Below, piece by piece: positions 52,633 through 60,685 of a stretch of 64,000 nt of DNA (the first letter of the stretch is position 1; each line of letters starts with the position of its first letter). Both the position numbers and the translations under genes were made by a program. Under the pieces are notes generated by a model, which was not told the DNA's origin, made no database searches, and saw only the letters and a list, made by a program, of their open reading frames with translations. The stretch covers positions 1 through 64,000 of the forward strand of contig JAJPHB010000032.1 in assembly GCA_021325525.1 (NCBI GenBank). Direction: 5' to 3'. Origin of the DNA: Alphaproteobacteria bacterium. GTDB lineage: Bacteria; Pseudomonadota; Alphaproteobacteria; ATCC43930; CGMCC-115725.

Positions 52633-53618
52633 GGGTCGAGCGGCTTTCGGCCGTTGCCGACGACGCCGTTGCCTCCTTCCCGGACGATGAAATCGCGGTA
52701 GCCGGCCGCGCGAAACCAGCCGCGAACCGCATCGAGCGTCACCGGAATGTCGTAGGCCGGTGCCAACGCGTCGAACGTGTCCATGATTGCCCAGCGCCGG
52801 CGCTCCGCCCGGCCGAGATCGGTATAGAAATAGTTGAAGCAGGGGACGATCGCGCCGAGATAGCGGCCGAAAAACGGTATCCGCTTGATTGCCGTGTCGA
52901 GCGGCAGCCATTTCGGGATGAACCATTCGAGGAACGCCAGCAGGCGCTCGGGCTCGATCCGTGTCGTGAGCGGCCGCCACAGATACTTCGCTTTCCAGGG
53001 CTGGATCTTGCCGTCCTTCAAATAGACATCGACCGAGATGCGACCGCCCGGGCGCAAGACGCGATCGAGCGCGCGGAACGCCGCCGCCGGATCGGGCGTG
53101 TGCTGAAGGACGCCGTGGCAGAAGACGCGGTCGAAGGCGCCGGCGCGGAATGGCATGTCGAGAATATCGGCCTGCAGGAAGATGGCGCCGCTGCCTTCGC
53201 CGAGATTGGCGGCGGCGACATCGACTGCGGTGCTGTAGTCGAACGAGACGAGCTCTGCGCCGCTCTCGGCGAGGAGCGTGGTGAAACGCCCGGCGCCGCA
53301 GCCGGCTTCGAGAACGAGCTCGCCGCGCAGATCCTCGAGACGCCATTCGGTTTCGCGGAGAAAGCGGTCGCGCGTCAGGCTGGTCCCGTTCACCGCATCG
53401 ATCTGCTCGCGCGCAAATTTGTGCCATTGCCGTGCGAAGGAGGCGTTGTAGCCGTCGCCCGTGCGAAACCGGAGAATGCCGTTGGTGATGGGAATGCTGC
53501 GGTCGCCGAGGCGCAAGCAATCCACGCCGAGCCGCAATGGCGAGTCGGGAAAGATCCGCCGTAGCCGGTCGACGAGCCGAAGATCGCCGATCTCACAATT
53601 CGAGATAGTCGATGTCAT
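52629..53618 (-). CDS. class I SAM-dependent methyltransferase with N-terminal Trm112-like remnant
   Basis: The 329-aa protein has motif I VLEAGCGAGRFTTLLA and SFDYSTAVDVA, then VFCHGVLQHTPDPAAA. The N-terminal LRLGDRSIPITNGILRF followed by YNASFARQWHKF resembles family members that carry a zinc-binding Trm112-like start, but the paired cysteines are gone here. The start at 53618 overlaps the next gene by 26 bp; a shorter start cannot be excluded. Confidence 0.8.
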   Translation of the reverse strand: MTSTISNCEIGDLRLVDRLRRIFPDSPLRLGVDCLRLGDRSIPITNGILRFRTGDGYNASFARQWHKFAREQIDAVNGTSLTRDRFLRETEWRLEDLRGELVLEAGCGAGRFTTLLAESGAELVSFDYSTAVDVAAANLGEGSGAIFLQADILDMPFRAGAFDRVFCHGVLQHTPDPAAAFRALDRVLRPGGRISVDVYLKDGKIQPWKAKYLWRPLTTRIEPERLLAFLEWFIPKWLPLDTAIKRIPFFGRYLGAIVPCFNYFYTDLGRAERRRWAIMDTFDALAPAYDIPVTLDAVRGWFRAAGYRDFIVREGGNGVVGNGRKPLDP

Positions 53619-55275
53619 TCCCGGCGGCCCAGACGGCGAAGCGGTGCAGATCGCCATTGGCGCGCAGCTCGGCCACGGAGCGCGCCACAGTGGCGAGATT
53701 CTGATCGAGCGCTCCGACGCCGCGCTCGCGCCTTTGAAACACGGACCGGAAGCTCGACATCGACCAGGGGCGCAGAATGAAGGCGGCATGCGCATGGCGC
53801 CGCGCCCGCAGGACGAGCTGCGGCGTCATCGGCGGCGCGTCCTGGAGCCGCGCGAGGCGGCCCAGATATTCCGCTCGGCTGCTCGAATCGACCGTGAAGC
53901 CCAGGCCCGAATAGCGTCCGGTCCCCGCCGTCAGCGTCGCCTTCCCGAAGCAGGGGAGCTCCATCCCGCATGTGCCGCGTACGGTCACTCCGAAATCGCT
54001 CGCGGCGAAGAGCGAGGCGGTGGAAATACGGGTGTCCGGCAGCAGCAGCCTCACATGCGGCGGCAGCGCCCCGAGACGCCGGCGAATGAGCGACAGCTCG
54101 GAATATTCGCCGGTCGCGCCGTCGCGCGCGCGCTTCCAGAGATTGGCCGGGTGCAGCTTGATCAGCCATGAGAGCGCGGGATTGCGCGCGGCGGCCCGCA
54201 CTGTCTCGATGAACCACTCGCCATAATCCTCGAAGAGATCTTCGCCATAGAAGAGATTGGCATCCCACAGCACATGCGAGAAGACGGTGGCAATCTTCTT
54301 TCCGGGATCGAGCGCCAGCATGCGCTTCAGCGCGCCCGGATCGGCGTCTTCGGTGTCGGGTTGGTTGCGGCGCTGCAGATACCATTTGCCGCTGTAGCGC
54401 GCCGCCAGAATCTCGTCGACCGCGCGCTCCTCCGCCATGCCCCAGGGCCGGCGCAGTACCGCCGCGAAACTCTCGGGCGAGACCGAGGAAGGATGCATGC
54501 GGCGGGTCTCGCGCGTCAGCCGCTTGAAGATGAGCGCATCGTCGCGCCAGGGCTGCGTCACCTGGATGACGGCGATGCCGCCGGCGATGAGGCGATCGAC
54601 GAAGGGGCCATAGACCGTGTAATTGGCCTCGATGACGAGGCCGAGATCGGCGCGCGCGGCCGCGACGACGCGCTCGGCCGCGCGGACGCGCCGCAGCACC
54701 TGCGGGAGCAGCGTCGCGATCTCGCCGCGCGTCGCCTCCTCGGCGGGATCGGGTGCGCCTTCGAGCCGGCGACGCGATACGGTCGAGAGAATCTGCGGGC
54801 CGATCCAGGAGCCTCCGAAGGTCCAGGCCTTGACCGCCTGGAAGGAGGGCGCGCCGGCCAGCAGCCGCGCCGCCTCGGCTTCGGCTTCCGCCGCCTCCTC
54901 GGCAGTGGGCGCGAAATCCTCGAGATAGAGGAAATCCGCGATCCCGAAGGCTGCGAAATAGCGTCGCGCCCGCGTATTTGCCCGCGCGTTGGTGAGGATG
55001 ATCGGCCGCCAGCCCGCGAGCTTCAGCGCCGCACCCAGCATCGCCTCGATCTTCAGCTGATAGACCATGTCGGAGAGCGAGACGATGAGAAGCCGCTTCG
55101 CCGCCAGCGTCGGCTCAGGCAGCGCCGCGCGGAGCCAGGCAAGCTCCTGCGCCGTTTGCCGCAGATCGGCCCGCACTGCCCTTTCGGTTTCGGGATCGCG
55201 CAGGCTGCGGGCGAGGTCGATGATGGCGGGGCCGATGACCGGCAGGCGCGCCACTTTGGCGGCTTTATGGCGCAT
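53593..55275 (-). CDS. capsule-type GT-B protein of unknown specificity
   Basis: This 560-aa cytoplasmic protein has a C-terminal half with SWLIKLHPANLW and the segment FGVTVRGTCGMELPCFGKA...GTGRYSGLGF. That pattern is seen in capsule biosynthesis proteins of the KpsS/KpsC and CDP-glycerol transferase-like superfamily (conserved K.HP and RGT.G.E..). The N-terminal half has a Rossmann-like LLIVSLSDMVYQLKIEAMLG. The sugar it transfers is not deducible. It overlaps neuA by 11 bp. Confidence 0.65.
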   Translation of the reverse strand: MRHKAAKVARLPVIGPAIIDLARSLRDPETERAVRADLRQTAQELAWLRAALPEPTLAAKRLLIVSLSDMVYQLKIEAMLGAALKLAGWRPIILTNARANTRARRYFAAFGIADFLYLEDFAPTAEEAAEAEAEAARLLAGAPSFQAVKAWTFGGSWIGPQILSTVSRRRLEGAPDPAEEATRGEIATLLPQVLRRVRAAERVVAAARADLGLVIEANYTVYGPFVDRLIAGGIAVIQVTQPWRDDALIFKRLTRETRRMHPSSVSPESFAAVLRRPWGMAEERAVDEILAARYSGKWYLQRRNQPDTEDADPGALKRMLALDPGKKIATVFSHVLWDANLFYGEDLFEDYGEWFIETVRAAARNPALSWLIKLHPANLWKRARDGATGEYSELSLIRRRLGALPPHVRLLLPDTRISTASLFAASDFGVTVRGTCGMELPCFGKATLTAGTGRYSGLGFTVDSSSRAEYLGRLARLQDAPPMTPQLVLRARRHAHAAFILRPWSMSSFRSVFQRRERGVGALDQNLATVARSVAELRANGDLHRFAVWAAGNDIDYLEL

Positions 55276-55975
55276 TGCGGCGCTCCCGGTCGGCGAGAAG
55301 GAGCTCGGCCAGACGCAGATCGTCCGGACCGTCGATATCGAGCGAGTCTTCGCGGCTCATCTCATAGCCGAAACTGCGGTCGGTGTAGAGCATGCCGGCG
55401 CGGACGATCTCGGGTCGCAGGACCAGCACGGCCGGGCCGTTGCGGGCCCAGAGCCGCTCCTTTTTCTGTCTCAGGTAAGATTGCGGGGTTGCGGCGAGGT
55501 ATGGCGTCACCCGCCCATCCTCCATCCGCATGAGCGAGGTCGGCGTGAACTGGTGCGGGACCGCGACGACACTGACCACCGAATCGGCCTCGCGCGCCTG
55601 GAAGAGCGCGACGGCCTCGTCGATATGCTGCGCCGTGCGAAAGGGCGAGGTCGGCTGCAGCAGGACGATTGCTTCAATGGGACCCGTGCCGTTCGCTTCG
55701 AGCCATTCGAGCGCATGGGCGATCACCGCGATCATCGGCGTGTCGTCGCCGGCGATCGCCGACGGCCGCAGGAACGGCGCTTCGAGGCCGAGGCTGCGCC
55801 CGAGCGCGGCGAGAGCGGGATCGTCGGTGGAGATGAGCCGGCGGTTGATGGCGCGGCTGCCGGCGGCCGCATCGGCGGTGTAGGCGAGCAAGGGGCGGCC
55901 GCCGAGCGGCGCCGCGTTCTTGCGCGGAATGGCCTTCGAGCCGCCGCGCGCCGGGACGAGCGCAATGATGCTCAT
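55265..55975 (-). CDS. neuA: acylneuraminate cytidylyltransferase (CMP-nonulosonate synthetase)
   Basis: The 236-aa enzyme has the CTP-binding motif ALVPARGGSKAIPRKNAAPL, followed by LISTDDPAL, VLLQPTSPFRTAQHID and DIDGPDDLRLAE, the metal-binding end segment. It activates a nonulosonic acid as CMP-sugar for transfer. The start gives ATGA coupling to the acyltransferase gene. Whether the sugar is sialic, legionaminic or pseudaminic acid is undetermined. Confidence 0.88.
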   Translation of the reverse strand: MSIIALVPARGGSKAIPRKNAAPLGGRPLLAYTADAAAGSRAINRRLISTDDPALAALGRSLGLEAPFLRPSAIAGDDTPMIAVIAHALEWLEANGTGPIEAIVLLQPTSPFRTAQHIDEAVALFQAREADSVVSVVAVPHQFTPTSLMRMEDGRVTPYLAATPQSYLRQKKERLWARNGPAVLVLRPEIVRAGMLYTDRSFGYEMSREDSLDIDGPDDLRLAELLLADRERRNAP

Positions 55976-57045
55976 CGGTCGTAGAGCTGGTAGCCGCGCA
56001 GCGAATTGCGCAGCCGGACGATCGGCCGCTCGACGAGAATGCGAATGAGGACCGCAAGCGCGAAGCTCGCGGCGACGGTGAGGCCGAAGGCGGCGCTGTT
56101 GCCGAGATGGAGCGTGATGACGGCGAAGATCACCGAGGGATGGACGAGATAGAGGGCGTAGGTGAGATCGCCGAGGCGCTTGTCGATGCGCTCGGCGGCG
56201 CGCGAGGCGCGCAGCGTCGTAAGTCCGACCATGAGCAGGAAGACGGTGATGAAGATCGCCGTCGAGGCCGTCACATGAAAGGACGGGCCGGCCGCGAGCC
56301 CGCGCGCGTTGTAGCCGAAATATGCATGGACCGCGAGAAGGAAGGCGACCGCGGCGGGCAGCGAGAGGCGTGCGTCGCCGCGGGCAAGGCGGAAATAGAG
56401 GAGCGCGCCGAGGATGAAGAACGGCGCGAATTGGAAGGCACCGTAAAAGCGCGCCTGCGCGCCGCTCCTCCAGACCCAAAGATAGAGAATGAGCGATGCC
56501 GCAGCTGCGAGCGGAAGCACGGGCATCCGCGGCAGAAGGCGCGTCGTTGCGAAGGCGGCGGCGGCGAGGAGATAGAACTGACATTCGACGATGACGGCCC
56601 AGGCGACGGATATGACGAGCAGCGTGTTGCCGTGCGGAAGATAAGCGGGCAGGAGCCCCAAATTCACGGCGATGCCGAAGGGGCTCCAATCGGCGGTTTC
56701 GCCCGCCCACAGCCGGGCGGCATAGGCGACCGGTACCGCCGCGAGGTAGGCGGGATAGATCTTGAGCGCGCGGTTGAGCAGGAACTTCGTTGTCGAGCGG
56801 CGGTAGAAGATGTCGAGCGCCTCGGAGATGACGAAGCCGGAGACGACGAAGAAAAGGAGGACGCCGACATTGCCGAGGGCCAAGGGACCGACGAATCCGG
56901 GCAGGAAGCCGCTCGCATGGCTGACGAGAACGAGACTCGCCAGGAGAAACCGGTAGGCCCCGAGGACGCGGTAGGGATGCGCCGTCACGCGCGGGACGGC
57001 GGCTGCCGTGCTCGGAGCGGCGGCGTCGAGCGCCAGCGTCTTCAT
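55972..57045 (-). CDS. acyltransferase 3 family membrane protein (glycan O-acylation)
   Basis: The 357-aa protein has about ten membrane helices, RFLLASLVLVSHASGFLP near the start with the conserved histidine, and VLLFFVVSGFVISEALDIF and RALKIYPAYLAAVPV typical of the family. These proteins move acetyl or related groups across the membrane onto surface sugars. It is coupled to neuA and 34 bp from the 2OG-type enzyme, so nonulosonate O-acetylation is plausible. Confidence 0.86.
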   Translation of the reverse strand: MKTLALDAAAPSTAAAVPRVTAHPYRVLGAYRFLLASLVLVSHASGFLPGFVGPLALGNVGVLLFFVVSGFVISEALDIFYRRSTTKFLLNRALKIYPAYLAAVPVAYAARLWAGETADWSPFGIAVNLGLLPAYLPHGNTLLVISVAWAVIVECQFYLLAAAAFATTRLLPRMPVLPLAAAASLILYLWVWRSGAQARFYGAFQFAPFFILGALLYFRLARGDARLSLPAAVAFLLAVHAYFGYNARGLAAGPSFHVTASTAIFITVFLLMVGLTTLRASRAAERIDKRLGDLTYALYLVHPSVIFAVITLHLGNSAAFGLTVAASFALAVLIRILVERPIVRLRNSLRGYQLYDR

Positions 57046-57079
57046 GTCGACCCGAGGAGCCGGCTCATCGCGCTGTTCA

Positions 57080-57922
57080 TCAATATCGCGGCGTAATGGC
57101 GGCGCGCTGCGCCGGAGAGAGCGCCGGCACCGCGGCGATGAAGGCGGCGCGGTCGAAGAGCGGCGCGCACCATTGCGGCGACAACGGCCGCGCCGAGTTG
57201 TAGCAGAAAAAGAGCGCGAGGCGGTCTGCGGTCGCGGCGATGCGGCCGCGGTGATAGACGCGGCAGGTATCGACGAAAACCGCGGTGCCGCGCTTGCCGG
57301 TGCAGCATCGCCAGCGCGCCGGCGGCACGAGCCGGGCCATCGCGGCATCGCTCGCGCGCGAGCCGTCGTGCGGAACGCGCCAGGACGCCGGCGTCAGCGG
57401 CCGCGGAATGAACTCGAACGGCCCGCCGTTTTCGTCCACATCGTTCAGATAGACGATGATCTTGAGGATTCGGTTGTCCTCATTGTCGCGATGCAGAAGA
57501 CGCGTCTCGACCTTGTCGCCGCCGACGATGTCGCGCCGCACGGTCAAGCCGCGATAGACGATTGGGAGCCCGATATAGTTTTCGGCGATGGCCAGCAGCC
57601 GCTCGTCGAGCCCCCAGCGGATGAGGTCGGGATAGCGCCCGATTTCCTCGGCCGCCGCCTGCACGCCGAAGCCGCCCTTGACCGGGGCGCGTCCTGCCAT
57701 CGCCCGCTGCAAGGCATCGCCCGCCGCCAGCATCGCCGCGGTTCCGGGGATCGCGAGATCCTCGAGGGACGTGGCCGCCCCGCCCTCGCCTTCGATGCGC
57801 CGTACCAGCGCGGCGTCCGCGGCCGAAAGGGCCGGCAATGCCGCGCGATGGCGCCGTCGCCGGTCCCAGTAGACGAGATTCCAGCGCTGCTCGTTCGCGT
57901 GCTGACGCAGATCCTGCATCAT
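57080..57922 (-). CDS. phytanoyl-CoA-dioxygenase-like 2OG/Fe(II) enzyme
   Basis: The 280-aa protein keeps the iron triad: H144-x-D146 (LLHRDNED) and H224 (VYHRGR), with R226 or R234 as the 2OG anchor. FVDTCRVYHRGR matches the distal motif of the PhyH family. ATG 57922 follows a GAGGGG site at suitable spacing; an upstream TTG start is possible but less likely. Its place between the acyltransferase/neuA and neuC suggests hydroxylation of a sugar or acyl group in the same pathway. Confidence 0.74.
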   Translation of the reverse strand: MMQDLRQHANEQRWNLVYWDRRRRHRAALPALSAADAALVRRIEGEGGAATSLEDLAIPGTAAMLAAGDALQRAMAGRAPVKGGFGVQAAAEEIGRYPDLIRWGLDERLLAIAENYIGLPIVYRGLTVRRDIVGGDKVETRLLHRDNEDNRILKIIVYLNDVDENGGPFEFIPRPLTPASWRVPHDGSRASDAAMARLVPPARWRCCTGKRGTAVFVDTCRVYHRGRIAATADRLALFFCYNSARPLSPQWCAPLFDRAAFIAAVPALSPAQRAAITPRY

Positions 57923-57933
57923 GGCGCCGCCCC

Positions 57934-59088
57934 TCAATAGGTGATGCGCTTCTGGATGTCGATGCGGCCGGTTGCGGCCAGCACCTCGGCGATGCGGCGG
58001 CCGGCCTCGCCATCGCCATAGATGGTGTCGGACGGGTAGCGGCGCTGCGCCGCTTGCCGGCGGAGCGCCGCAACGATCGCATCCTTCTCGTGCGGCACGT
58101 CGAGAACGTTGCGGCCGCGCTCGCGACCGGCCTGGCGCGATCCGATGTTGACGACGGGCGTGCCGATATAGGCGCCCTCGCGGATGCCGCTCGACGAGTT
58201 TCCGACGAGGCAGGCGGCGCGCGCCATCAGCCGGATATAGGTCTCGACCGGAAGATTCTTGAAAAAATGCATGCCCTGCGCGAGCCCGCGCTCGCGCAGC
58301 TTGCGGATGCCGCGCGCGATGTCCTCGGATCCGGCATCGGCATTGGGCCAGAGCACGATCGCGGGCAGGCCGATCTCGCGCACCGCTTCGAGAGTCGTCG
58401 TGATCTGCCGCTCGCCCTCGCCATATTCGGTCGTCACCGGATGCTGCGAGACGAGGAGGAAGGGCGCGTCGAGATCGAGGCGGTCGCCGACGCCGAGATC
58501 GAAGATGGCGGCATCGAGCGGCGCCGTGCCGTCGCCGAGGATCTCGGCGACGAGATCGACGCGCGGGCAGCCGACGAGGTGCACGGTCTCGGCCGGCTCG
58601 CCGAGCCGGATGATGCGCTCGCGCGCACCGCGGCTCGCCGGGAAATGGAGATGGGCGAATTTGGTGACCGCGTGGCGGATGCTCTCGTCGATGGTGCCCG
58701 AGACCTCGCCGCCCATCGTATGCGCGATCGGAATGTTCATATAGGCGGCCGCCAAGGTCGTCGCCATCGTCTCGAAGCGGTCGCCGACGGTGAGGACGAT
58801 GTCGGGCGCGAGCGTCGCGAAGACGGTCGGCAGTTCGAGGAGGCCGAGGCCGGTCGATTTCGCCATGGTGACCGGCGTCTCGCCCTCGATCAGCATGTGC
58901 ACCTTGGCGGCGATGGCGAAGCCGTCGCGCTCGATGAGCCGCGCGACGGCGCCATACCGGTCGAGCAGCGCCGAGGCGCCGGCGACGATCTGCAGCGATA
59001 GCTCCGGATGCGCCGCGATGGCGCGCAGCGCCGATTTGATGCTGCTGTAATTGGCCCTGGAGCCGATGACGACGCAGATCTTCTTCAC
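57934..59088 (-). CDS. neuC: UDP-N-acetylglucosamine 2-epimerase, hydrolysing (NeuC/LegG-like)
   Basis: The 384-aa enzyme begins VKKICVVIGSRANYSSIKSAL and has TVGDRFETMATTLAA, IPIAHTMGGEVSGTIDESIRH and VGNSSSGIREG near the C-terminus, the signature set of hydrolysing UDP-GlcNAc epimerases. It yields ManNAc or the 2,4-diacetamido analogue. GTG 59088 is preferred, because the family starts at this lysine-rich strand; an ATG at 59118 gives ten extra residues. It ends 11 bp before the dioxygenase gene. Confidence 0.88.
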   Translation of the reverse strand: MKKICVVIGSRANYSSIKSALRAIAAHPELSLQIVAGASALLDRYGAVARLIERDGFAIAAKVHMLIEGETPVTMAKSTGLGLLELPTVFATLAPDIVLTVGDRFETMATTLAAAYMNIPIAHTMGGEVSGTIDESIRHAVTKFAHLHFPASRGARERIIRLGEPAETVHLVGCPRVDLVAEILGDGTAPLDAAIFDLGVGDRLDLDAPFLLVSQHPVTTEYGEGERQITTTLEAVREIGLPAIVLWPNADAGSEDIARGIRKLRERGLAQGMHFFKNLPVETYIRLMARAACLVGNSSSGIREGAYIGTPVVNIGSRQAGRERGRNVLDVPHEKDAIVAALRRQAAQRRYPSDTIYGDGEAGRRIAEVLAATGRIDIQKRITY

Positions 59089-59145
59089 GCGATGCTCGCT
59101 CTCATCTAGTATGTGCATGTGCTTTGCATGTTAAGGAAAGAAGAT
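59089..59145. promoter_or_regulatory. divergent AT-richer promoter region between neuC and the RHH gene
   Basis: The 57-bp stretch is AT-richer than its surroundings and contains GTGCATGTGCTTTGCATG (59113-59130), a partly symmetric sequence suited to a ribbon-helix-helix operator. AAGGAAAGAAG serves as ribosome-binding site for the + gene. No firm promoter hexamers can be assigned. Confidence 0.35.
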
Positions 59146-59424
59146 ATGGCGCTTGCGACGGAGCGCGTCGTTGTCCTTATGACCAAACCCGAGCGGCGAG
59201 CTTTGGAAGCCAAGGCGCGGCGCATAAGGACCTCGACGGCGGAGCTCGTTCGCCGCTCGATCGCGGCATTCGATCCCGAGGCCGACGAGGCCGAGATTGA
59301 AAGCTTGCTCGACGCCCTGACGCGCTCTCATCAGGCGACCCTGGCCGCTCTCGACAAGGCCGAGCGGGAATTGGCCGAGACGCGGAAGCAGATCGCCGAG
59401 CGGATGGCCGCGAGAAATCCGTGA
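59146..59424 (+). CDS. small ribbon-helix-helix-like protein with C-terminal coiled coil
   Basis: The 92-aa protein starts MALATERVVVLMTKPERRAL: the beta-strand (ERVVVLMT) plus two helices (RRALEAKARRIRTSTAELVRRSI) fits a CopG/Arc-type ribbon-helix-helix DNA-binding domain. The second half (IESLLDALTRSHQATLAALDKAERELAETRKQIAERM) is a heptad-rich coiled coil. It is the only gene besides its neighbour on the plus strand in the 27-kb glycan locus. ATG 59146 has AAGGAAAGAAG upstream. It could be an antitoxin-like or autoregulatory factor. Confidence 0.74.
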   Translation: MALATERVVVLMTKPERRALEAKARRIRTSTAELVRRSIAAFDPEADEAEIESLLDALTRSHQATLAALDKAERELAETRKQIAERMAARNP

Positions 59425-59642
59425 GCATCACCGATCGAGTCCTCGAGGCGCTGAGAGCCGCCATCTTGCTCGAAGCGCGAGTCGGCTCTCTCGCTGAGAA
59501 CGTCGGCCAGTTGGCGCGCGATGTCCGAGACATCGACAAACGCCTCATACGCCTCGAGTCGCTCATCGAGTTCGGCTCTCGCCGCGGGGGCGCTGCTCGC
59601 CGCACAGACGCCCGGCTGCCGATAGAGAAGCGTGGAGAATAG
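59421..59642 (+). CDS. small coiled-coil protein partner of the RHH gene
   Basis: The 73-aa protein starts with GTG overlapping the previous stop (GTGA). The N-terminal helix ITDRVLEALRAAILLEARV and the heptads AENVGQLARDVRDIDKRLIRL predict a parallel coiled coil, followed by a basic tail (RRGGAARRTDARLPIEKR). It is not recognised as a known toxin fold, and too small for RelE-type toxins. It probably forms a complex with the RHH protein. It converges on neuB with 8 bp between stops. Confidence 0.66.
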   Translation: MSITDRVLEALRAAILLEARVGSLAENVGQLARDVRDIDKRLIRLESLIEFGSRRGGAARRTDARLPIEKRGE

Positions 59643-59650
59643 TTCGGCCA

Positions 59651-60685
59651 TCACGCGAAATCGGCTTCGCTGAATTTGTGGTCCCGCGGCACGGCGCGGC
59701 GGAGGCGGCGGCCGATGACGGCGCGGTGCTCCGAGACCGGAATGCCGTCGCCCGGTTTCTTGAAGGCGAGATCGCCGGCCGCGAGAACCGCGCCCGCGGC
59801 GAGCGGGCGTGAGGCGACGATGCTCTTCTCGAAGACGCGCTTCATCTCGCCGTAAGGTTCGAGATCGTCCTTGTCGACGGGATGAGCCAGCATCCTCCGG
59901 ACCTCGTCCAGTTGTCGCGCCAGCGCGGCGAAATCGGCGGGCTCCATGGCGTTGGCCGCATCCGAACCGTACATGAGCCGCGAGAAGGTCAGATGCTTCT
60001 CCACCGTGCGCGCGCCGAGCGCGACGGCGGCCAGCGCCGCCGCGGGCCCTGTCGAATGGTCGGAGAAGCCGACCGGCACGCCGTAGCGGATGCGCATCTC
60101 GCCGATCACATTGAGGCCGACGCGCTCGGGCGGGCAGGGATAGGCCGAGCTGCACTGCATCACCATGAGCGGGCCGCCGCGGCGCAGCACGGCGACGGCG
60201 GCGTCGAGCTCGGCCCAGGAGCTCATGCCGGAGGACAGGAGCGCGGGTTTGCCGGTGGCGGCGACGCGCTCCAAGAGCGGCAGGTTCGTCACCTCGCCCG
60301 ATGGAATCTTGTAGGCGCCGGCGCCGATCGCTTCGAGGAGATCGACGGCTTCGATGCTGAAGGGCGAGGAGAGAAAGGTGACGCCCGCGCTGGCGCAAGC
60401 TGCCTTCAGCCCCGCCCATTGCTCGCGGCTGAAGGCGGTCCGCTTGAAGTAGGCAAAGCGCGGCTCGCCGGTGAAATAGGCCGGCGCCGGGGCATCGGTC
60501 AGCGTCTCGGCCTCGGCGATATGCGTCTGGAACTTGACGGCGTCGGCGCCGCATCGCGCCGCCGTCTCGATCAGCTTCACCGCATTCCCGTAGGAACCGT
60601 CATGCACCGAGCCGATCTCGGCGATGAGGAAGGGAAACGGCTCCGCCCTGCCGTCAGGCCCAGGCGACGATGTCGGGAATGTCAT
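59651..60685 (-). CDS. neuB: N-acetylneuraminate/legionaminate synthase (NeuB family)
   Basis: The 344-aa enzyme has a TIM barrel (GADAVKFQTHIAEAETL, LSSPFSIEAVDLLE, AYKIPSGEVTNLPLLE, VGFSDHSTG, RTVEKHLTF), then a SAF domain from about 280 (VASRPLAAGAVLAAGDLAFKKPGDG). It condenses phosphoenolpyruvate with a six-carbon amino sugar. With neuC and neuA it forms a complete three-step core of nonulosonate activation. Start ATG 60685 overlaps the upstream methyltransferase by 32 bp. Confidence 0.89.
   Translation of the reverse strand: MTFPTSSPGPDGRAEPFPFLIAEIGSVHDGSYGNAVKLIETAARCGADAVKFQTHIAEAETLTDAPAPAYFTGEPRFAYFKRTAFSREQWAGLKAACASAGVTFLSSPFSIEAVDLLEAIGAGAYKIPSGEVTNLPLLERVAATGKPALLSSGMSSWAELDAAVAVLRRGGPLMVMQCSSAYPCPPERVGLNVIGEMRIRYGVPVGFSDHSTGPAAALAAVALGARTVEKHLTFSRLMYGSDAANAMEPADFAALARQLDEVRRMLAHPVDKDDLEPYGEMKRVFEKSIVASRPLAAGAVLAAGDLAFKKPGDGIPVSEHRAVIGRRLRRAVPRDHKFSEADFA

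Follow-up and report, generated by a model that had tools for sequence, protein, structure and literature searches.

The tailoring of sialic acids known so far in bacteria consists mainly of acyl, amino and methyl changes. In animals, CMP-Neu5Ac is hydroxylated by CMAH; a 2019 review states that no bacterium had been shown to make Neu5Gc (PMC6724515). KdoO, an Fe(II)/2OG enzyme, turns Kdo into Ko (PMC8533242), and in the open-access literature we found no 2OG enzyme in any nonulosonate or sialic-acid pathway. A dedicated hydroxylase within a neu operon would, if true, be a new reaction in bacterial sialic-acid tailoring, and a 2OG hydroxylase of sialic acid would be the first such bacterial enzyme as far as we found in the literature.

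We analysed a window of 64,000 nucleotides (G000:C135:1-64000) from the 4.79-Mb draft genome of an alphaproteobacterium, rated 100% complete; statements about that genome as a whole rest on family searches. The first-pass annotation had placed neuA, an acyltransferase 3 protein, a PhyH-like dioxygenase, neuC and neuB together, and all five are present with family matches on the minus strand, running from 60685 to 55265 in the order neuB, neuC, dioxygenase, acyltransferase-3, neuA (Table 1). Two features go beyond that account: an insert of ~560 bp lies between neuB and neuC, and neuA is followed by a glycosyltransferase gene, designated gt560, which is coupled to it by an overlap of 11 bases. 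The same locus holds many further tailoring genes.

Table 1. Genes and other features of the nonulosonate locus, in positions of the window.
Feature	Position	Strand	Basis
neuB, nonulosonate (N-acetylneuraminate-type) synthase	59651..60685	-	Pfam NeuB + SAF, TIGR03569, PDB
neuC, hydrolysing UDP-GlcNAc 2-epimerase	57934..59118 or 59088	-	TIGR03568, PDB score pair, tree
dioxygenase, 2OG/Fe(II), predicted PhyH-type fold, putative accessory tailoring enzyme	57080..57922 (or TTG 57937)	-	alignment, model, Foldseek
acyltransferase-3, membrane O-acyltransferase	55972..57045	-	Pfam Acyl_transf_3
neuA, CMP-nonulosonate synthetase	55265..55975	-	CTP_transf_3, PDB
gt560, 560-aa GT-B-like glycosyltransferase, candidate nonulosonyl-transferase	53593..55275	-	orthologue Capsule_synth match, neighbourhood, model
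insert of ~558 bp between neuB and neuC	59093..59650	.	8-bp direct repeats TCACGCGA

The first steps of the pathway had been described as standard sialic-acid-like chemistry, and our comparisons bear this out and sharpen it. NeuB matches Pfam NeuB (E 2.3e-70), carries a SAF domain, and has the meningococcal SiaC/NeuB as its best match in the PDB. It scores 324.6 bits against TIGR03569, compared with 223 bits for PseI; this is under the N-acetylneuraminate synthase equivalog cut-off of 399.65, so the exact acid is not fixed beyond the Neu5Ac type. NeuC scores 394.6 bits against TIGR03568, the hydrolysing UDP-GlcNAc 2-epimerase family (cut-off 235.9). In the PDB it matches human GNE at 273 bits and the diNAcBac epimerase at 212 bits, whereas a control NeuC encoded beside LegC in G151 gave the reversed pair (178 and 336 bits, respectively). 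In a tree of 67 alphaproteobacterial NeuC sequences, the window protein falls within a clade of 28 with support of 100/100; the single Leg-labelled locus in this clade (L126) additionally bears a distinct Leg operon that includes another NeuC. A family search of the window's genome gave no match over the cut-off for the LegC aminotransferase. NeuA matches CTP_transf_3 (E 2.3e-16), and its best PDB match is the CMP-N-acetylneuraminate synthetase 6ifd (126 bits).

Judged by sequence, NeuC is of the UDP-GlcNAc type and not of the legionaminate type. Together with the lack of a LegC match, this points to a core route in which NeuC would hydrolyse UDP-GlcNAc to ManNAc, NeuB would condense ManNAc with PEP to a Neu5Ac-like acid, and NeuA would form the CMP-sugar. 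The product of the operon would most likely be a sialic acid of the Neu5Ac type. The pathway itself is common, as NeuC exceeded the cut-off in 76 of the 385 alphaproteobacterial genomes sampled. The view that the neu genes serve a legionaminic or pseudaminic pathway was rejected for NeuC on the control scores, the tree and the absent LegC. There is, though, a second NeuB at the contig end, outside the window (L014:4961-8650; G000:C135:88961-92650). It is accompanied by a GNAT acetyltransferase, an NAD-epimerase and a PseC-like aminotransferase, and the group may form a further nonulosonate pathway of this cluster.

The insert between neuB and neuC is bounded by two copies of the 8-bp direct repeat TCACGCGA (59085-59092 and 59651-59658) and sits at the position where neuB and neuC overlap by 4 bases in relatives. 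The repeat includes both the neuB stop codon and the neuC GTG start, and the likely native start of neuC is the GTG at 59088, as in relatives. Direct repeats of this kind are what a target-site duplication would leave. The insert is present in a single copy in the window's genome. It holds a plus-strand open reading frame (59149-59424) for a 91-aa, ribbon-helix-helix-like protein with no Pfam match, as well as an overlapping 72-aa frame seen by direct reading of the sequence. It resembles a small mobile cassette, though one that has no transposase.

Searches of Pfam, NCBIfam and the PDB with the dioxygenase sequence gave no match, and the orthologue from a Lake Baikal MAG (G295) reaches 18.5 bits to Pfam PhyH, where the gathering cut-off is 22. 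The predicted structure (pLDDT 81.8, pTM 0.84) is weakest in the stretch around the HxD motif, with pLDDT <50 at residues 140-147. Its Foldseek matches (E 5e-11) are SnoN, ColD, proline hydroxylase H11, GriE, EctD, HygX and AviO1, all of them 2OG enzymes. The iron triad had been called intact, and it is: the ligands H144, D146 and H224 are invariant in an alignment of ten homologues, as is the 2OG-binding R234. The model clearly predicts a PhyH-type 2OG fold with its double-stranded beta-helix, and from it we expect the protein to work like a PhyH-type 2OG oxygenase; membership of the PhyH family by sequence is not claimed. With an aspartate among the iron ligands, hydroxylation, desaturation or epimerisation is more to be expected than halogenation, and a halogenase reading was rejected because this residue is present. 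The Rieske iron-sulphur domain of CMAH was not found in the protein, which has the predicted 2OG fold instead. Membership of the KdoO family was likewise rejected, as the window protein has no Pfam match and its orthologues have either a PhyH match or none. A phage or virus origin was rejected too, with no match to the dioxygenase in viral contigs or phage records.

The dioxygenase is rare. A scan with conserved peptide patterns, which missed more distant relatives found later, located it at four loci in 84,980 species genomes. In the window the gene comes directly after neuC, and so it does in G042, a genome of the same genus recorded as a Rhodospirillales MAG. There, the neuC stop and the dioxygenase start share one base, and the gene order is neuB-neuC-dioxygenase-unknown-acyltransferase-3-CysD-CysNC-neuA-gt560. 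In a Bradyrhizobiaceae MAG, whose dioxygenase is 46% identical, the order is dioxygenase-methyltransferase-neuB-neuC-asnB-neuA. The Lake Baikal gene (38% identity) adjoins a gt560 homologue; no neu gene was found within 20 kb of it, and the genome, at 63% completeness, yielded neither NeuB nor NeuC. Homologues at 33-36% identity on Rhizobium and Methylobacterium plasmids lie outside nonulosonate operons, as does one in G838. Linkage to neu genes is seen in two independent lineages only, and a nonulosonate link for the whole PhyH-like family was rejected on these stand-alone homologues and those of G264 and G119.

In a tree, the dioxygenases of the window, G042, L023, L025 and G295 are split from the stand-alone relatives (Rhizobium, Methylobacterium, G838) with support of 100/100. 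Shortly before the HxD motif, members of the first clade carry four charged residues close to the iron site, R124, R129, D131 and E139, which are absent from the sister clade and suggest a shift of substrate towards an acidic sugar. Distant homologues were also seen near neuB or neuA in G070, G337, G320 and G784. The relative in G784 (L146:1119-11400) has neuB-like and neuA-like genes in its vicinity, along with a weak gt560 homologue, and may be a third lineage of the grouping.

Operon position in two lineages and the clade-specific residues together support a functional tie between the dioxygenase and the nonulosonate genes, as had been suggested from the place of the gene in the window. We read the operon as a set of Neu5Ac-type nonulosonate genes with add-on tailoring in which the dioxygenase hydroxylates the sialic acid, a reading that we regard as evenly balanced between right and wrong. 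In the order of steps that we infer, the 2OG/Fe(II) dioxygenase would most likely work in the cytosol and hydroxylate the sugar at the stage of the precursor, the free acid or the CMP form; the GT-B-like gt560 would probably move the nonulosonate of the CMP-sugar onto the surface glycan, and acyltransferase-3 would then probably O-acylate the glycan. That a bacterial 2OG/Fe(II) subfamily, unrelated to CMAH, hydroxylates sialic acid or its CMP form to Neu5Gc or to a backbone-hydroxylated nonulosonate is a proposal whose chances we put somewhat short of even.

The Lake Baikal gene and the homologues of Rhizobium, Methylobacterium and G838 count against a sialic-acid hydroxylase. An enzyme that adjoins a gt560 homologue where no neu genes were found would suit a different explanation, in which the target of the dioxygenase is a different portion of this surface glycan, or the glycan's lipid or acyl substituent, and the gene stays in the operon on account of the common glycan and not because sialic acid is the substrate. 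The locus is, moreover, rich in genes for other tailoring. The same surface-glycan region of the contig also encodes, outside the window (L013:11199-12035; G000:C135:75199-76035), another dioxygenase that is clearly PhyH (46.7 bits), so the company of PhyH-type enzymes is not limited to neu genes. However, in two lineages the gene lies inside the neuB-neuC-neuA group and not elsewhere in the cluster, and we consider action on another residue rather unlikely, if a serious contender.

A comparison with G138 bears on whether the dioxygenase takes part in the pathway at all. In this close relative the order is neuB-neuC-neuA-gt560, where neuB overlaps neuC, and neuA overlaps gt560, by 4 bases each. 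These genes include neither the dioxygenase nor the acyltransferase; both therefore look like accessory tailoring genes, to judge from gene content. An operon without the dioxygenase in close relatives would also be expected if the gene were a passenger that plays no part in the sialic-acid pathway, and the locus did take up other DNA in the form of the neuB/neuC insert. We hold a passenger to be very improbable: the active site is intact, the reading frames are coupled in two species of the genus, and the arrangement recurs independently in another lineage.

If the dioxygenase does act on the sialic acid, two positions of attack come into question besides others on the sugar; we give these two equal weight, and each of them, taken singly, seems improbable. 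One is the N-acetyl group, whose hydroxylation would yield a glycolyl (Neu5Gc-like) form and make the enzyme a 2OG counterpart of CMAH. Hydroxylation of a methyl group is typical 2OG chemistry, and a Neu5Ac-type core is supported, but no sequence feature indicates the N-acyl group. The other is C3 of the 3-deoxy-2-ulosonic acid, in the manner of KdoO, which sets the example of a 2OG enzyme with a 3-deoxy-ulosonic acid as its substrate (PMC8533242). Close to the iron site, the arginines peculiar to the clade could bind a carboxylate. Against C3 it can be said that the dioxygenase is, as far as Pfam shows, outside the KdoO sequence family, and that KdoO takes lipid-linked Kdo rather than a cytosolic sugar. 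C3, or another glycan residue, fits as well as the glycolyl form.

The remaining genes of the operon would act on the glycan. Acyltransferase-3 has Acyl_transf_3 as its sole domain (Pfam, E 5.3e-24), with no SGNH domain found by Pfam, and its orthologue in G042 scores 290 bits. The window's gt560 has no Pfam match of its own, and an orthologue matches Capsule_synth at 21.5 bits. Its model is of low confidence (pLDDT 59.5), with GT-B folds as the best structural matches, and for that reason we use only the resemblance to GT-B. The family adjoins neuA in five loci (the window, G042, G138, G183 and G236), which suggests that it transfers the nonulosonate and makes gt560 a candidate for a new family of nonulosonyl-transferases. 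The G042 operon differs in that sulphate-activation genes, CysD and a fused CysN/CysC, separate the acyltransferase from neuA (L011:4779-7584), which hints at a sulphated sialoglycan.

Several known systems offer a measure for this locus. With the PhyH-type oxygenases PhyH, EctD, SnoN, HygX and AviO1, the window dioxygenase has the fold and the HxD...H...R site in common; unlike them, it has no significant sequence-family match and stands in a nonulosonate operon. KdoO, the Kdo 3-hydroxylase, is also an Fe(II)/2OG enzyme for an ulosonic acid of a surface glycan, but it belongs to another sequence family and acts on lipid-linked Kdo in LPS. CMAH would be a functional parallel should the dioxygenase act on the N-acetyl group, although as a Rieske-type enzyme it has an unrelated fold. 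In gene content the locus resembles the neuBCA pathway for Neu5Ac, all three enzymes of which are encoded in one operon here, with a NeuC of the UDP-GlcNAc type. The window departs from that pathway in its NeuB, which is under the Neu5Ac equivalog cut-off, in a coupled glycosyltransferase for which no close characterised relative was found, and in the 2OG dioxygenase and acyltransferase-3 that lie between neuC and neuA.
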